From positions 1,023,860-1,087,859 of the forward strand of contig NZ_CP039373.1 in NCBI RefSeq assembly GCF_000179235.2: a stretch of DNA of 64,000 nucleotides. Direction: 5' to 3'. A model generated the notes under the pieces. It searched no databases. It worked only from the letters and a program-made list of their open reading frames with translations, and was not told where the DNA came from. Below, one piece after another: positions 20-7,142 of this stretch. Positions within the stretch are counted from its first letter, which is position 1; each line of letters starts with the position of its first letter. This DNA is from Synechococcus sp. CB0101. Its GTDB lineage: Bacteria > Cyanobacteriota > Cyanobacteriia > PCC-6307 > Cyanobiaceae. The translations under genes were made by a program, and so were the position numbers.

Positions 20-1189
20 GTGACCGCCAGCGCGACGAGCCCTGCCCGCGAACCCCTCACCACGGCCAGCCCCCTGCCGGTCACCATCCTCACCGGTTTT
101 CTCGGGGCAGGAAAAACCACACTGCTGAATCACATCCTCAGCAACCAGCAGGGCGTGAAAACAGCCGTGCTGGTGAACGAGTTTGGCGAGATCGGGATCG
201 ACAACGATCTGATCATTGCCACCGGTGAAGACATGGTGGAGCTGAGCAACGGCTGCATCTGCTGCTCCATCAACGGAGAACTGCTCGACGCGGTGTATCG
301 CATCCTCGATCGCCCGGATCCGGTGGATTACCTGGTAGTGGAGACCACCGGCCTTGCGGATCCGTTGCCCGTCGCGATGACATTTCTAGGCAGCGATCTG
401 CGCGATGCCACCCGCCTCGATTCGATCATCACCCTGATCGACGCGGAGAACTTCAGCGACGAGATTCTCGATGGCGAAGTCGCACGGGCCCAGGTGGTCT
501 ACGGCGACATCCTGCTGCTCAACAAATGCGACCTGGTGAGCGAGGAGCGCCTGGCTGAGGTGGAAGGCAGGCTGCGGGAGATCAAAACCGACGCCCGCAT
601 CCTGCGCTCGGTGAAAGGCGACGTCAGCCTGCCGCTGCTGCTGAGTGTGGGGCTGTTCGAAAGCGACAAGGTGGCCGCCGAGCAGAACCACGACGACTGC
701 GATCACGATCACGGCCACTGCGTGCACGACCACGATCACGGGCATTCCCACGATCACGATCAGGCCCACGACCATCACGATCACAGCAACTGCGATCACG
801 ACCATGGGCACTGCGAGCACGAGCACGGCCATGACCATGGCCACACGCACGATCACGGCCACGCTGATCACCTGGCCATCGAAGGGTTCACCTCGCTCTC
901 CTTCAGCAGCGATGGCCCCTTCGCCCTACGCAAGTTCCAGAATTTCCTGGATAACCAGCTCCCCGCTGGCGTGTTCCGGGCCAAAGGCATCCTCTGGTTC
1001 AACGAGAGCGACAAACGCCACGTGTTTCACCTCGCCGGCAAGCGCTTCTCCATCGATGACAGTGAGTGGGGCTCAGCCGGCGATCGCAAAAACCAATTGG
1101 TGCTGATCGGCAAAAACCTTGACCACCCCCAACTGCGCAAGCAGCTCCAGGCCTGCGTGGCCAAGGATGCAGGCAAAGGCTTCGCCTGA
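20..1189 (+). CDS. CobW-family GTP-binding metallochaperone with long His-rich loop
   Basis: COG0523 (CobW/CobP47K) GTPase of 389 aa, a family that hands metal ions to target enzymes or transporters in the cytoplasm. Walker A GFLGAGKT lies at residues 26-33, the family-defining CICC metal motif at 79-82 and the guanine-specificity motif NKCD at 168-171. Residues about 223-284 are an almost unbroken His/Asp run with interspersed Cys, inserted before the C-terminal CobW_C domain, so strong binding of a transition metal is expected. The GTG start is only 19 bases from the window edge; the protein looks complete. It precedes a B12-riboswitch-controlled hupE and a fur gene, which suggests cobalt or zinc, but the metal is not determined by sequence. 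Confidence 0.93.
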   Translation: MTASATSPAREPLTTASPLPVTILTGFLGAGKTTLLNHILSNQQGVKTAVLVNEFGEIGIDNDLIIATGEDMVELSNGCICCSINGELLDAVYRILDRPDPVDYLVVETTGLADPLPVAMTFLGSDLRDATRLDSIITLIDAENFSDEILDGEVARAQVVYGDILLLNKCDLVSEERLAEVEGRLREIKTDARILRSVKGDVSLPLLLSVGLFESDKVAAEQNHDDCDHDHGHCVHDHDHGHSHDHDQAHDHHDHSNCDHDHGHCEHEHGHDHGHTHDHGHADHLAIEGFTSLSFSSDGPFALRKFQNFLDNQLPAGVFRAKGILWFNESDKRHVFHLAGKRFSIDDSEWGSAGDRKNQLVLIGKNLDHPQLRKQLQACVAKDAGKGFA

Positions 1190-1197
1190 AGCGATAC

Positions 1198-1348
1198 TGC
1201 AAAGAGCGGTTTCCCGGATTCAGACCGGGAAGGCAACGAGGAAAGTCCGGTGGTGGGTTACGACCCCAGTCCGGCACTGTCCCGCAGCTGTGATGAAGCC
1301 AGCTCCGGCTCGCTTCTCAGTCAGAACGCTCGCCGCTCCCCCGTTCAT
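1198..1348 (+). promoter_or_regulatory. Cobalamin (B12) riboswitch upstream of hupE
   Basis: The leader between cobW and hupE contains, in the order expected for the cobalamin riboswitch, GAGGAAAGTCCGGTG, then CCCGCAGCTGTGATG, then the B12-box-like AGTCAGAACGCTCGCC, with GC-rich pairing segments between them. The start of hupE lies about 35 bases further on, so the element would switch hupE off when adenosylcobalamin is plentiful. Boundaries are approximate and the fold was not computed. Known biology: hupE cobalt transporters in cyanobacteria are commonly B12-riboswitch controlled. Confidence 0.82.
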
Positions 1349-1381
1349 CCCCTTCAGCACCGGCGCGGACCGGCCCTGCTC

Positions 1382-1957
1382 ATGCCCACCAATCTTTCCC
1401 GTTCCCTTCTGCTCAGCAGTGCCGCCGGCTTCGGCCTGAGCCTGCTCTCGGCCCTGCCCGCTGGAGCCCATGGCAGCGCCGATGCCGGCGTGATGGCCGG
1501 TGCCCTGCATCCCCTGATGGGTATCGACCACCTGCTGCTTCTGGTGGGCGTGGGCCTGACGGCAGCGCGTTTTGGACCTCTGCTCCTCGGTTTTGCCCTG
1601 GGCGGCGCGCTGCTGGGCAGCGTGTTCGGCAGCTTCGGCGGCCAGCTGCCAGGTGCCGAACTGCTGGCAGCCCTGGCCGTGAGCGCCGTGGGTGCCGTGC
1701 TGCTGATGAGCGACAAGCTGCAGCGGCCACTGCCCCTCGTGAGCGCCGTGCTGGGCAGCGCCGTGGCGGTGCATGCCCTGCTGCATGGCCAGGAAGCAGC
1801 AGGCACCTCCAGCTGGTGGCTGGGTGCTCTGCTGGCCTCAGCGCTCACCATTGGGGTGAGCTTTGTGGCGGGCCGTCGGCTGAACCAGCGCCAGAACCTG
1901 CTCGCCGCAGGCGCCCTTGTGGTGCTCGGTGGTGTTCTGGCACTCGCACCGCTGTAA
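1382..1957 (+). CDS. hupE: HupE/UreJ-family cobalt (nickel) transporter
   Basis: Integral membrane permease of 191 aa, HupE/UreJ family. After a signal-like first segment (residues about 8-29, ending PAGAHG) comes the family motif HPLMGIDH at residues 43-50, whose His and Asp bind Ni/Co, followed by about five further hydrophobic segments. A longer reading frame extends upstream, but it would run through the riboswitch, so the ATG at 1382 is preferred. Control by a cobalamin riboswitch argues for cobalt import to feed B12 synthesis; picocyanobacteria make a B12-type corrinoid and need cobalt. Nickel transport cannot be excluded. Confidence 0.9.
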   Translation: MPTNLSRSLLLSSAAGFGLSLLSALPAGAHGSADAGVMAGALHPLMGIDHLLLLVGVGLTAARFGPLLLGFALGGALLGSVFGSFGGQLPGAELLAALAVSAVGAVLLMSDKLQRPLPLVSAVLGSAVAVHALLHGQEAAGTSSWWLGALLASALTIGVSFVAGRRLNQRQNLLAAGALVVLGGVLALAPL

Positions 1958-1998
1958 CGGCATTCGTTGCAACACCAGCGCTGGACGATCCCGCTAGC

Positions 1999-2169
1999 GT
2001 GCGGGGAATCGCGTCCAGCGCTTTGGCCGATCTACTCCTGCTGTCCGCCGTGATCACCCTGGCTGGTGTGATTGCCTGGCTGGCGGCTGGCTCTGACGAC
2101 GACAACGGTGGCGGCGGTCTGATGCAGCCGGTGTTGGTGCCCGTGCGCTCAAACCGTTACCGGGGCTGA
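1999..2169 (+). CDS. Small single-pass membrane protein, function unknown
   Basis: Possible 56-aa protein starting at GTG 1999, 41 bases after hupE. It has one clear hydrophobic helix (residues about 10-30), then an acidic/glycine stretch SDDDNGGGG and a short C-terminal tail. A longer frame from 1816 overlaps hupE and reads as low-complexity Arg/Pro sequence, so the short start is favoured. No family recognised. The last 21 bases overlap the end of the convergent fur gene. The call rests on membrane-protein-like composition and position only. Confidence 0.45.
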   Translation: MRGIASSALADLLLLSAVITLAGVIAWLAAGSDDDNGGGGLMQPVLVPVRSNRYRG

Positions 2170-2631
2170 CTCAGCTGCTGCACAACTGGGGCAGAGGGCC
2201 CGCACGTTGAGCACGCACTCCAGCAGGCGAAAGCCGTGCAGACCGGCCGCTTGCTCACCGGCTGAGAGCACGGCTTCGCTCTCAAATTCTTCGGTGTGGC
2301 CGCAGCGCACGCACACCAAGTGATGGTGATTGCGGTGGTCGTCATCGCTGGCCAGCTCGAAGCGCCGCCCACCCTCCGGAAGCTCCAGCTCCCGCAGCAG
2401 CTCCATCGAGCTCAACAAACGCAGGGTGCGATACACCGTGGCAAGCGACACCCGCTCCTCAGCGCGCAACAAACGCTGATGCACCTCTTCAGCGCTGAGG
2501 TGGGTTCCTTCGCCGAGGCGCTCAAACAGCGCCAACACCCGCTGCCGCTGCGGGGTGAGCCGCTGGCCTCGCCCATGCAAGCTGCTGCGCAGCGCCTCAG
2601 CAGGCAACTCAGGCGCCGGAACGGCGGGCAT
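2149..2631 (-). CDS. fur: Fur-family metalloregulator (FurA-like)
   Basis: Transcriptional repressor of 160 aa of the ferric uptake regulator family. The winged helix spans residues about 20-85, including LTPQRQRVL and the recognition segment SLATVYRTLRLL. The dimerization/metal domain has a His cluster (HRNHHHL, 99-105) and two zinc-type CxxC pairs, CVRC (107-110) and CPSC (147-150). The motif pattern (LTPQR, ATVYRTL, ELELPEG, HHHLVCV) is closer to cyanobacterial FurA than to Zur. Neighbouring metal genes (cobW, hupE) fit a metal regulator. Its start lies 22 bases beyond the end of the upstream flippase-like gene. A PerR role is possible; sequence alone does not settle iron versus peroxide sensing. 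Confidence 0.9.
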   Translation of the reverse strand: MPAVPAPELPAEALRSSLHGRGQRLTPQRQRVLALFERLGEGTHLSAEEVHQRLLRAEERVSLATVYRTLRLLSSMELLRELELPEGGRRFELASDDDHRNHHHLVCVRCGHTEEFESEAVLSAGEQAAGLHGFRLLECVLNVRALCPSCAAAESAPVTV

Positions 2632-2653
2632 CAGCGAAACGACGGCGCTGTTC

Positions 2654-3649
2654 TCAACAGTAACGCCTGTTGCGAATAGCCGCCAGGTCTGCCCGAGCTG
2701 TGAGCGCGCCCAACAGATCCGCCACCGTGCTCACCAATCGGTAGCTGATCACCACCGCCAGTAGGGGGGCCTCAGGCACCACCGCAGCCAGTCGCATCAG
2801 CAGCACCGCCTCAAACACCCCCAAACCGCCGGGGGCACCGGGCACCACAAGACCAGCCGTCCAGGCCAAAGCAAAGCCCGCCAACCAACCGCCCCAGCCG
2901 ATCGCAAACGACAGATCGAACGCCTGCACGCAGCAGGCGAAACCGGCAAAGCGCAACAGCACAAACCCGAGCTCCGCCAGCAGAGGCGGCCAGGGATACC
3001 CCGGCAAAGCCGGGGGCAACTCCAGCGCCACGTCGGTTGCGGAGTTGTCGAGCAAACCGCGCTCCACCAGTTGGCGGGCCCGTAGCTGCTCGAGCCGCTG
3101 CATCAGTGGATTGAGCCAGCGGGGCAGCAGCACCAGCAGGGGCAACAGGCAGAGCAGCCAAAGACCGGCCTGCCAGCCGCCGAAGGGCACCAGGGCCAAG
3201 GCCGCCACGGCCGCCAGCAACGGATCCAGCAGCACCGAAACGAGCGCCTGCGGCGTACGCAGCGGCGGCCCCTCCAGCGGCGATTCGGGTGCGGGCTGCG
3301 CCTGAAGAGCTCGCACCCGCGCCACCAGATGCCACACACCACCCGGCAGGTATTTGCGCAGATTCGAGGTGAGGAACAACACAACAGCAGCGCTCCACCG
3401 GGGCTGATGCCCCAACCAGCGGAGCACCACCCCCCAAGCCGCTGCATTCGCCAACAGGCTGAGCAGGCTCAAGCCCACACCCAGCAACAACCAGCACCAG
3501 CCCTGGGCATCAAAGCTCAGCTGCAGCAGCTGACGCCCATGGCTCACCAAGGCCGCCAACAAAAAGCCGGCGCTGGCCAAGGTCACCCAAAGGCGTGCTC
3601 CCCCTGGCAGGGGCCGCCACAGCTCACGCCAACGGAGGCTGTTGATCAT
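2654..3649 (-). CDS. Flippase-like / LPG-synthase TM-domain membrane protein (UPF0104)
   Basis: Polytopic membrane protein of 331 aa, related to the N-terminal membrane region of lysylphosphatidylglycerol synthase MprF and to YbhN-type proteins. About eight hydrophobic segments are visible. Two hallmarks are present: the LRKYLPGGVWHLVAR segment (residues about 97-111) and PGAPGGLGVFEA in the C-terminal third. There is no soluble transferase domain, so it is the stand-alone membrane form whose substrate is generally unknown but is thought to be a lipid. Its ATG overlaps the stop of larC by four bases, implying translational coupling. Confidence 0.85.
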   Translation of the reverse strand: MINSLRWRELWRPLPGGARLWVTLASAGFLLAALVSHGRQLLQLSFDAQGWCWLLLGVGLSLLSLLANAAAWGVVLRWLGHQPRWSAAVVLFLTSNLRKYLPGGVWHLVARVRALQAQPAPESPLEGPPLRTPQALVSVLLDPLLAAVAALALVPFGGWQAGLWLLCLLPLLVLLPRWLNPLMQRLEQLRARQLVERGLLDNSATDVALELPPALPGYPWPPLLAELGFVLLRFAGFACCVQAFDLSFAIGWGGWLAGFALAWTAGLVVPGAPGGLGVFEAVLLMRLAAVVPEAPLLAVVISYRLVSTVADLLGALTARADLAAIRNRRYC

Positions 3650-4875
3650 GGATGGGGCGGCGGCGAGGGATCAACAAGGTCATCGTCGACCAGCGCCAGC
3701 ACGGCCCGTCGCAGGCGCGCCACTGGCAGCTGATGGCGGAGGGCCAACGCCGCCAGATCATCGGCTTCCGGCTTGCACAACCAACTGCCATCCGGACGGC
3801 GTGAGCGTTTGATGCGCACAGGCCCCCAGGGGGTGTCCACCAGCGCCTGCTCGCGGGGTAACGACCAGCGCTGCAGCAGCTCCTCTCGCACTCCCAGGCT
3901 GGTGCCATACCGCCACCACACCGCACGCAATGCCTCGGCCTGCTCCGGCCGCGCCAGCACCGTGATCATGCTGGCCGGCCGCCCCTTTTTCATCTGCAGC
4001 GCCTGGGCAAACACCTCCAGGGCGCCGCTGTTGCGCAGGGCTTCCATCAAGAGGGCGAGATCTTCACCGCTGGCGTCGTCGATCTGGGCCTGCTGCTGCA
4101 GCAGGGTTTCCTGCAGTTCCCCCGTCGCCCCTGGCGGGTGAGCCAACACCAGCCGCAGCAGATTGGCCCGATCCAGCTGGCGCGTGCCCAGCCCCACACC
4201 CACCGCCTCCGGCACCAGCGCAGGTGCCTGGCCGAAGCGATCCGCCAGGGCCGCCATCAATGCCATGCCCGTGGGGGTGGTGAGCTCCGCCGGCGGGAAG
4301 CTCTCGCTGCTAGCCAAGGGCAGATGCCGCGCCCGCGCCAGCTCCAACACCGCCGGTGCTGGCAGGGGCAGCCAGCCATGGGCGGTGGACACGCGGCCAT
4401 GGCCTGCCGGCGGCGGCGTGCAGATCAGCTCGGTGATCCCGAAATGCTGCAAACCCGCGCATACCCCCACCACATCCACCAACGCATCCACCGCGCCCAC
4501 CTCATGGAAATGCACCTGCTCGGCCCCATAGCCGTGCACGGCCGCCTCGGCATCAGCCAAGAGGCCGAACACCGCCAACACCCGCTGCTGGAGCTGCGGC
4601 TCCAGAGGAGCTTCCGCCAACTGGCTGCGTAGCCCGCCCCAATGGCGATGGGGCGGTGAAGGCTCGGTGAGCGCCACCTGCAGCTGGAGCCCCCGCAACC
4701 CAGCGCTGCGGGCCTCCTGGAACTCAAGGCGATAGGCATCTGCCAGGCCGAGGGCTGCCAAGGGCTCATGCACCACCGCTTCCGGCAGCCCCAGATCCAG
4801 CAGAGCAGCCAGCAGCATGTTGCCCGCGAGGCCCGTGGGGCAGTCCACCACTGCGAGCCGGCCCTGGCGCTGCAT
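3646..4875 (-). CDS. larC: LarC, nickel-pincer cofactor biosynthesis (nickel insertion) protein
   Basis: LarC/DUF111 family, 409 aa. In lactobacilli LarC is the CTP-dependent cyclometallase that inserts nickel into the pyridinium dithiocarboxylate cofactor of lactate racemase. The N-terminus VVDCPTGLAGNMLLAALLDLG is followed by the conserved HFHEVGAVDALVDVVG region typical of the family, and by the PTGMALMAALAD segment. An in-frame extension to 4938 exists, but the ATG at 4875 forms a TGATG overlap with the upstream stop and is preferred. No larA, larB or larE is present in the window, so the client enzyme is unknown. Confidence 0.88.
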   Translation of the reverse strand: MQRQGRLAVVDCPTGLAGNMLLAALLDLGLPEAVVHEPLAALGLADAYRLEFQEARSAGLRGLQLQVALTEPSPPHRHWGGLRSQLAEAPLEPQLQQRVLAVFGLLADAEAAVHGYGAEQVHFHEVGAVDALVDVVGVCAGLQHFGITELICTPPPAGHGRVSTAHGWLPLPAPAVLELARARHLPLASSESFPPAELTTPTGMALMAALADRFGQAPALVPEAVGVGLGTRQLDRANLLRLVLAHPPGATGELQETLLQQQAQIDDASGEDLALLMEALRNSGALEVFAQALQMKKGRPASMITVLARPEQAEALRAVWWRYGTSLGVREELLQRWSLPREQALVDTPWGPVRIKRSRRPDGSWLCKPEADDLAALALRHQLPVARLRRAVLALVDDDLVDPSPPPHP

Positions 4876-5531
4876 CAGACCAGCGCCAGCAGGGTCTCGG
4901 CCTGCTGATCGAGCTCGGCGCGGCGTTGCCGCAACCACTGCTCCACCTCCCGGCGGGCGCGGCGCTGCTCCTGCTGGGCCGTCGCCACGTCGTAGCCCGA
5001 GAGCCCCCAGAGCCGGCCGAGCAGAGCTCGATCATCCGCGCCACCGCGGGAGCCGCCGTACACCAATTGCTCAGCGATCATCCCGGCCTGGAGCACCCGG
5101 CTCCAACGGCGCAAATCCTCTAGGGCCAGCTTGGCGTGGGCGGGGGGCTCCAACTGGGTGCTGCCATTGGCACTGAGGCCCTCGCGCAGGCAGGCACGGC
5201 TCCCCACCAGCACCTGCTTCACCGGCAGCTTGTTATCGGCCGCCACCAACACATGGCCAGCCTCATGAATGGCGATGCGCCGTAACCGCGCGCGACCGAT
5301 CCCGGCAGGCAGGGCTTCGGCCAGCAGATGGCCGCCGAGCCCTCCAAAGCGAGCTGCATCGAGCGTGAGCGCCACCATGCCACCACCGGCCGCCAGCGCA
5401 ATCAGCCAGGGCGACAGCCCCAGGGGAGGCCCGGCCACGGCCAGCACCGTGATCGCCGCAACGGCAGCCCCGGCAGACAGAGCCCCAGTGGAGCCCTGAT
5501 CGGAGCCTGGGAAGCGCTCCGGCGCAGCCAT
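4875..5531 (-). CDS. AAA-less FtsH-like (M41-type) membrane metalloprotease
   Basis: Protein of 218 aa with two N-terminal hydrophobic segments (residues about 19-36 and 41-58) and a soluble domain resembling only the peptidase part of FtsH. The zinc-binding HEAGH is at 89-93. The downstream signature AGMIAEQLVYGG...GGADDRALL (149-170) matches the FtsH segment that supplies the third zinc ligand. There is no AAA+ ATPase domain, so it cannot unfold substrates itself. It is known from cyanobacteria and plastids only as a poorly characterised Zn-protease-like group (recalled, not searched). Stop and larC start overlap (TGATG); the upstream gene ends two bases before its start. Confidence 0.8.
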   Translation of the reverse strand: MAAPERFPGSDQGSTGALSAGAAVAAITVLAVAGPPLGLSPWLIALAAGGGMVALTLDAARFGGLGGHLLAEALPAGIGRARLRRIAIHEAGHVLVAADNKLPVKQVLVGSRACLREGLSANGSTQLEPPAHAKLALEDLRRWSRVLQAGMIAEQLVYGGSRGGADDRALLGRLWGLSGYDVATAQQEQRRARREVEQWLRQRRAELDQQAETLLALV

Positions 5532-5533
5532 GC

Positions 5534-6226
5534 TCAGCGTCGACCGCCAGGACGGCCACCCCGGCCGGGGCCGCGCCCCTTGCCGGCACGCTGCGGCACC
5601 GGAGCGATCACCTCATGCTGTTCGAGCTGCAGCTGCTGACCCTGGCGGCGCAGGTCAAGCGAAACGAAATGGCGCAGGTGCTCGGGCGCGATCTCGCCGC
5701 GCAGCTGCAACTTGAAGGGTGTCGGGCGAGAGCCATCCGCACGGGGCTGTTGGCGGATCTTCACCACCAGATCGCCATCCTCCGGACGGGTGTAGATCAG
5801 TTCGCCGCGCACGGAGAAGTAGCCATCGCCCTCCGGCAGATCGTCGGTTGGGGCGGCCACCGCTTCGGCATCAACAGCGCTTTGGGTGGCGATCTCGGTG
5901 GCGGCCAGGGTGCTGGGTTCCCAGACACCCACCAACTGCAGGTGCAGCTTCTCGGGGTCGCGGAAGCGGGGATAAGCCACCCAGAGGTGGGGCTTGCTGA
6001 GATCGAGGTGGCGACGCATCAGGGTGAGCACTCGGCCGAGCACCACGGCTTCGATCTCGGTGCCGTCTTCGGCCTTCAGGCTGCCGCGGGTGAGCTGCTC
6101 AGGGTCTTCGGGCACATAGGTCCCCCGCACCACACCGATGGCCCGGTACTGCATCGGTTCGGTGACCGGCGAAATGGGGTGCTGACGCATCGTGGCTGAA
6201 ACCCTCTGGGCGCTCGTGTTGTCCAT
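5534..6226 (-). CDS. Conserved cyanobacterial protein with Gly/Arg-rich tail, function unknown
   Basis: Protein of 230 aa from the ATG at 6226; an in-frame extension to 6400 would run under the divergent TPR gene, and its sequence is not domain-like. The core has a motif-rich segment around RAIGVVRGTYVPEDPEQLTR and then LGRVLTLMRRHLDLSKPHLW. The tail is basic and Gly/Arg-rich (GKGRGPGRGGRPGGRR), a composition often seen in RNA-binding proteins. I recall the core as a conserved cyanobacterial family without an assigned function. It heads the tightly packed minus-strand run that continues with the M41-like protease, larC and the flippase-like gene. Confidence 0.75.
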   Translation of the reverse strand: MDNTSAQRVSATMRQHPISPVTEPMQYRAIGVVRGTYVPEDPEQLTRGSLKAEDGTEIEAVVLGRVLTLMRRHLDLSKPHLWVAYPRFRDPEKLHLQLVGVWEPSTLAATEIATQSAVDAEAVAAPTDDLPEGDGYFSVRGELIYTRPEDGDLVVKIRQQPRADGSRPTPFKLQLRGEIAPEHLRHFVSLDLRRQGQQLQLEQHEVIAPVPQRAGKGRGPGRGGRPGGRR

Positions 6227-6293
6227 GGCCCGGCCGCCAATGTAACCAGCCCTTGCCATGGCCCCAGACTGAGGCGCATCCACGCGCTGCACC

Positions 6294-7142
6294 ATGCCGC
6301 CACGCGCCAGCACCAATGCCCGAGGGCTGCTGCTCAGCCTCGGCGCCATCGCTTTGGTGGGCGGATCAATGGCGGGCGGCTGGTGGCTGGGGCAACGCAA
6401 CCAGCGTTCAGCTGGCGATCTGGCGCAGGTGGCCGTCGAGCGCCAAGCCGATCAGCTCCGCCAGCGCCTCGCGGAAGGCAGCGCCAGCGAGGCCGAGCAG
6501 CAACGGCTGGTGCAACTGCTGCTGGCCCTGAACCAACAGGAGGAGGCCACCGCCCTGCTGGAACAACTGGCCGACCAGCAACCGCAGCGCTGGCAGCTGC
6601 GGTTGCTGCTGGCGGAACTGCATCGCAACAACAACAACCGCAGCGCCGCTGAGCGGGAGCTGCGCCAGTTGCTCAACCTGAGCCCCAACCGCATCGAAGC
6701 CCTGCAGCTGATGGCCCTGCTGCAGTTCGAACAAGGGCGGGGCAGCGAGGCCCAGGCCCAGCTCAAGGCCCAGATCGAACGCGCCAGCAAGCCCGCCATC
6801 GAACCCCAGGTGCTGCCCTTGGGCCTGCTGCTGGGTGATCTGCAGCAGCGCATGGGGCAGAAGGCCGCCGCCGCTGCGACCTACACCAAGCTCGCCGCTG
6901 AATTCCCCCGCGACCCCCGGCCGCTGCTGGCCCTGGCCCTGCTGCGCCAGGAGCAAGGCGACAGCAAAGGCGCCCAGGAGGCCCTAGCCCAGGCGCGCAA
7001 CCGCCAACCGGGCAGCAAAGACACCCGCCTCGATCAGGTGGCCGCCAGCTGGGGCATCAGCAATCTGCGCCAGGGCAAGCCGGCTAAGGAGCCTTCACCT
7101 GCGACGACGGCCCCGACCCCTGAGCCGCGTTCAACTCCTTGA
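6294..7142 (+). CDS. Membrane-anchored tetratricopeptide-repeat protein
   Basis: Protein of 282 aa with one N-terminal transmembrane helix (residues about 11-30) and a helical Gln/Leu/Ala-rich body containing degenerate TPR motifs, for example EEATALLEQLADQQPQ, SAAERELRQLLNLSPN and AAATYTKLAAEFPRDP, each with the A/G-x-x-x-Y/L-x-P spacing of a TPR. Such proteins act as assembly scaffolds; the partner is unknown. It is divergent from the minus-strand operon starting at 6226. Its last 59 bases overlap the tail of the convergent gene at 7084. Similar to cyanobacterial TPR proteins implicated in photosystem or pilus assembly, but not assignable. Confidence 0.85.
   Translation: MPPRASTNARGLLLSLGAIALVGGSMAGGWWLGQRNQRSAGDLAQVAVERQADQLRQRLAEGSASEAEQQRLVQLLLALNQQEEATALLEQLADQQPQRWQLRLLLAELHRNNNNRSAAERELRQLLNLSPNRIEALQLMALLQFEQGRGSEAQAQLKAQIERASKPAIEPQVLPLGLLLGDLQQRMGQKAAAAATYTKLAAEFPRDPRPLLALALLRQEQGDSKGAQEALAQARNRQPGSKDTRLDQVAASWGISNLRQGKPAKEPSPATTAPTPEPRSTP

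Follow-up and report, generated by a model that had tools for sequence, protein, structure and literature searches.

A putative metalloprotease that lacks an ATPase motor has already been described in plants, and it is among the closest known comparisons for the gene analyzed here. In the sections of PMC9166295 drawn on here, Arabidopsis VIRESCENT3 (VIR3, At1g56180) is presented as a putative chloroplast metalloprotease with no ATP-binding domain, with transmembrane segments, and with an HEAGH motif facing the stroma; it is suggested to be active as a monomer or in small complexes. The same sections report that tAPX and GAPB drop after MEcPP induction in HDSi plants and not in HDSi/vir3-1, and that efforts to assay VIR3 in vitro were hampered because the protein is membrane-bound (PMC9166295).

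The window (the whole 64,000-nucleotide stretch of Synechococcus sp. CB0101 DNA) carries a member of a cyanobacterial protein family that resembles VIR3, as described in those sections, in having membrane segments, then an HEAGH protease domain, and no ATPase. This relation is one of described architecture; VIR3 is, in the same account, a plant plastid protein with the plant partners tAPX and GAPB, whereas the family analyzed here is cyanobacterial. With FtsH and the other AAA+ metalloproteases of M41, the family shares the protease-domain fold, the HExxH motif, a GxxxE segment, and the Asp equivalent to the third zinc ligand. Unlike FtsH, it has no AAA+ domain, its protease domain is preceded by a short hairpin, and ~34 residues that follow the Asp helix are missing. 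Site-2 proteases (M50; SpoIVFB and M. jannaschii S2P) also carry HExxH, but the predicted fold of the window protein matches them far more weakly than it matches FtsH. A small stand-alone Vibrio cholerae chain (PDB 5iqj, 125–131 residues) resembles the predicted model (Z 11.0 over 107 residues, rmsd 2.7), although it is only 13% identical to the window protein; on this fold match, M41-type domains without a motor may also occur in bacteria other than cyanobacteria. A literature search of open-licence PMC papers found none on the cyanobacterial gene. Because the kind is already known from plants through VIR3, the window gene is best described as a new member from bacteria, apparently not yet studied in open-licence papers.

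The gene occupies positions 4875–5531 on the minus strand, running from an ATG at 5531 to a stop codon whose last base is 4875, and its product has 218 amino acids. Its open frame of 245 codons leaves no space for an ATPase domain, and a Pfam search of the 218-residue chain for an AAA+ ATPase domain returned M41 and weak M50 matches only. Downstream lies larC (3646–4875, minus strand; nickel pincer cofactor protein; PF01969 at E 1.5e-117, TIGR00299), whose start shares one base with the protease stop (TGATG), provided that larC begins at the ATG at 4875. Upstream, a conserved cyanobacterial gene listed at 5534–6400 (minus strand; true start uncertain; no Pfam or NCBIfam match) ends 2 bases before the protease ATG. 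The overlap with larC and the abutting upstream gene, both described in the sequence-only reading, were thus both seen. Relatives of the upstream gene were found in 94 of the 96 class genomes searched, and it is widespread in cyanobacteria. Metal-related genes cluster at positions 20–4875 of the window and comprise a CobW-type GTPase that carries a His-rich stretch, HupE/UreJ, a Fur-family regulator, and larC; they are possibly a nickel or zinc group.

At the sequence level, assignment of the protein to M41 came from profiles rather than from single-sequence comparison. The window sequence scored 24.7 bits against Pfam M41 (PF01434; residues 84–166), below the gathering cut-off of 29.9, and we therefore label it M41-type, divergent branch. 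The NCBIfam FtsH equivalog model gave 15.5 against a cut-off of 600. Across the family, PF01434 matched 56 of 66 members at E ≤ 0.1, with a best value of 3.5e-07. A profile built from the 66 sequences matched FtsH structures in the PDB (2ce7 at E 4e-07), whereas phmmer with the single window sequence returned no FtsH from the PDB, so that the profile was needed to detect it; the single-sequence matches, among them triosephosphate isomerase at E 0.0046, are taken for chance. Against the protease domains of the genome's own four true FtsHs, hhalign gave a probability of 98.1 and an E value of 1.1e-13, aligning HEAGH, the GxxxE segment, and the Asp that is equivalent to the third ligand. In the same alignment, the ~34 residues that the family lacks fall between the Asp helix of FtsH and its C-terminal helices, and the M41 domain of the family is to that extent incomplete.

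The predicted structure points to the same fold. AlphaFold2, supplied with the window protein aligned to 12 relatives (60–95% identical), produced five models that differ, with mean pLDDT of 80.0 for the best and 63.8 for the poorest. Means over 10-residue blocks were 85–98 from residue 81 onward and 41–70 over two N-terminal helices, which were modeled with low confidence at residues 16–33 and 41–61. Among the matches listed by VIA-align, 22 FtsH-type entries scored Z 12.8–16.6, mostly over residues 67–218. These include the apo-FtsH of T. maritima (3kds_E; Z 15.8 over model residues 67–218, with 141 residues aligned at rmsd 2.9 and 26% identity), 9a2p in the top row (Z 16.6, itself a model), AFG3L2 (16.2), YME1 (15.3), and 2ce7 (15.2). 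Foldseek on the whole model likewise ranked FtsH types first, with TM to query of 0.38–0.53, rmsd often of 5–11, and only three matches at E ≤ 0.001. A site-2 protease reading fits less well on both counts: M50 profile matches were weak (13.1 against a cut-off of 27.2 for the window sequence; E ≤ 0.1 for 37 of the 66 members, with a best value of 0.0011), and site-2 protease chains among the VIA-align matches listed reached only Z 5.2–6.2.

Hydropathy and the modeled helices together define a predicted N-terminal membrane hairpin at residues 16–61 (5349–5486, minus strand). At least one hydrophobic stretch lies ahead of HExxH in 81 of 81 sequences; because the hydropathy counts sum overlapping windows, they are used here only to show that such a stretch exists in each sequence. 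The 18 residues preceding HExxH are weakly positive in net charge (median +1, range −2 to +4), and the motif itself follows the hairpin, within the well-modeled soluble domain. The AAA-less, M41-type metalloprotease with a membrane hairpin that had been read from the letters is supported by fold, profile, and invariant catalytic residues, and the comparison with the FtsH protease domain that accompanied that reading returned a matching rather than an unrelated fold.

Catalytic residues were followed across 161 loci, made up of all 149 places listed by the single-sequence search of the class and 12 further loci, with the matches of nine further tallied genomes left aside. The loci were read in two rounds, 81 proteins (80 relatives and the window's) and then 80 more; homologue start codons were picked by script as those nearest to 80 residues before HExxH, so that homologue N-termini are approximate. 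H89, E90, and H93 of the putative zinc-binding and catalytic HEAGH motif (residues 89–93; 5253–5267, minus strand) were identical in 161 of 161 loci. G150 and E154 of the AGMIAE segment (residues 149–154; 5070–5087, minus strand), which aligns with GRxAE of FtsH, were kept in all 160 loci that reach that far, as were G163 and D167 (5031–5033, minus strand). D167 aligns with an FtsH Asp that we take, from FtsH structures, to be the third zinc ligand. The one locus that does not reach the Asp (L192, G045:C60:9000-10600) has its gene split across two frames, by a frameshift, as a pseudogene, or through an assembly error. In the 66-row alignment, where identity to the window protein falls to 19%, H89, E90, H93, G150, E154, G163, and D167 form the only invariant columns; an active enzyme would be expected to keep these residues. 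Conservation across 161 loci puts the gene past chance, and HExxH, together with the later Asp whose conservation the sequence-only reading had proposed to check, is retained among homologues rather than lost in most of them.

The gene is common in its class. The single-sequence search found it in 156 of 194 genomes, with one match apiece in 141 of the 156 by hand count. Matches of the profile search split cleanly into two sets, with true members at E ≤ 2.2e-56 and others at ~3e-11 to 9e-7, the latter read by their scores as FtsHs; the one of these that was listed has a frame of 547 codons. By hand count, true members occur in 149 of the 186 class genomes with any match, comprising 32 of 58 in the window's taxonomic family and 117 of 128 outside it. 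Genomes that have no protease include many of 1.6–1.9 Mb and some of 2.4–2.6 Mb in that family, and 11 outside it. In other classes of the phylum, the 14 sampled genomes with any match gave none better than 6.4e-9 and no true member. A mobile or phage origin was set aside, as single-sequence tblastn at an E limit of 0.01 found no match in phage and plasmid collections.

Four full-length FtsHs are encoded beside the protease in the same genome. A maximum-likelihood tree sets these four off from the family as one group (100/95; recovered in each of 200 bootstrap trees). The tree is read without a fixed root, and long branches meet at the join between FtsH and the family. All 21 sequences of the window's group belong to one clade (100/100), whose branch measures 2.65 changes per column; on sequence grounds, this form is much changed, its catalytic residues are kept, and its neighbors differ. 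The function of this clade may have shifted, given so long a branch. One genome (G047) holds two copies (L078 and L079), of which L078 is very divergent, with an end branch of 2.43 and a shorter N-terminus.

Taken together, the data probably describe a membrane-anchored zinc endopeptidase of M41 fold and VIR3 kind, active, cytoplasm-facing, and free of an ATPase motor. By analogy with FtsH, the two helices would form a short membrane hairpin with both ends cytoplasmic, and the protease domain would face the cytoplasm. Alignment with FtsH suggests that H89, H93, and D167 would bind zinc and that E90 would activate water. Without an AAA ring or the ~34 FtsH residues, the protein is probably a monomer or small oligomer, as was also suggested for VIR3. 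Its targets would be flexible or already loosened segments, exposed to the cytoplasm, of proteins in the membrane or associated with it; whole proteins would not be unfolded and degraded. Since only accessible parts could be reached without a motor, limited cutting or the removal of loosened proteins is likelier than processive degradation. Action without unfolding, one of two mechanisms first offered for the gene, is plausible and is the one we favor.

The other of those mechanisms, partnership with a true FtsH hexamer, found no support. It would make the protein an accessory protease or adaptor that joins the hexamer and is fed by the FtsH motor, and it draws on the shared fold, the same presumed membrane side, and the presence of four full-length FtsHs in the genome. 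The protein, however, has neither an AAA domain that could take a place in the ring nor the ~34-residue FtsH segment, and we consider such a partnership unlikely. Class genomes that lack the protease, moreover, still give FtsH-strength matches (for example, E 1e-9 to 1e-11; FtsH by score), which indicates that FtsH does not need it. That the protein is a catalytically dead relative whose fold is kept for binding only has a precedent in the FtsHi pseudo-proteases described in plants, within the portion of that literature drawn on here; yet H, E, and H are intact at every locus and D at every locus that extends to it, in sequences down to 19% identity, and we regard loss of catalysis as very improbable. 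Gene neighborhood suggests two further readings, in which an active protease would be tied to a particular partner. Service to LarC, or to nickel-pincer maturation, is suggested by the nearby CobW, HupE/UreJ, and Fur genes and by gene order: among 81 loci read, larC lies directly downstream of the protease in all 21 of the window's group (nine same-family genomes, including the window's own, and 12 loci whose membership is assumed from identity), and a simple test finds an overlapping stop and start (TGATG or ATGA) at 17 of these 21 junctions. Against this, larC adjoins the protease in 0 of the 60 other loci, and in each of the four examined same-family genomes that have no protease, larC keeps the upstream gene as its neighbor, with 135–261 bases between their aligned parts. 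The co-occurrence check with larC, which had been proposed along with the view that coupling to LarC is a functional clue, shows larC in 190 of 194 class genomes, whereas the protease occurs in 156 of 194. The larC link is lineage-specific by gene order, and the functional clue is unsupported: persistence of the upstream gene–larC pair without the protease, together with the breadth of larC, makes the link look like an inherited local arrangement. Partnership with LarC is rejected as a general feature, and the chance that the protease serves LarC or nickel-pincer maturation at all is very slight.

Outside the window's group, a different neighbor recurs. In 25 of 60 loci, drawn from 12 of 28 families, the next gene upstream in the same orientation encodes a VanY-type carboxypeptidase, at gaps of −4 to 338 nt, as against at most 6 of 59 loci for the commonest downstream gene family (both counts take ORFs of at least 120 codons). 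Of 119 genomes for which both genes are among the matches listed, 73 have the VanY and protease starts no more than 2.5 kb apart on a single contig, regardless of orientation; the window's family is not represented among these 119. Such an order could mean that the protease is a dedicated processing or turnover enzyme for the neighboring VanY-type D,D-carboxypeptidase, that is, a means of cell-wall control. VanY is more widespread than the protease, however, occurring in 193 of 194 class genomes, and the two genes lie far from each other in all five genomes checked from the window's family. VIR3, for its part, works in plastids, where we know of no VanY partner. The N-terminal tail of VanY, before its membrane segment, carries a DIPxAxR-like motif in 23 of 25 proteins by the pattern used, the other two having DVP; examples are L064:6793-7632 and the window's own genome (L093, G000:C1:583577-583963), and the motif is kept even in small genomes. 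It was considered as a protease recognition site and rejected: it is just as common where the single-sequence search found no protease (19 of 20 VanYs, the twentieth reading DIQLAKR), and it is therefore no evidence for contact between VanY and the protease. We treat the VanY gene order as a lead, and a role dedicated to VanY as improbable. A broader evolutionary scenario is similarly doubtful: the motor-less M41 protease would be a cytoplasm-facing envelope regulator, co-transcribed with the membrane-anchored VanY in many lineages; the picocyanobacterial branch to which the window gene belongs would have moved the protease next to larC and changed it fast toward a new substrate; and plants would have inherited the enzyme without its wall partner, giving plastid VIR3.

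The initial observation is confirmed and its structural reading was right, while its inference about LarC is unsupported. For the protein family, a motor-less FtsH-type protease with predicted membrane helices in place of the ATPase tests whether an M41 domain alone can be a useful enzyme, and the recurrent VanY neighbor supplies the first concrete guess at a substrate. VIR3 may have its counterpart among bacteria in this family; according to the sections of the plant study drawn on here, difficulty in assaying the plant protein has left its chemistry unsettled, and the small cyanobacterial versions could make the question of motor-less M41 activity testable.
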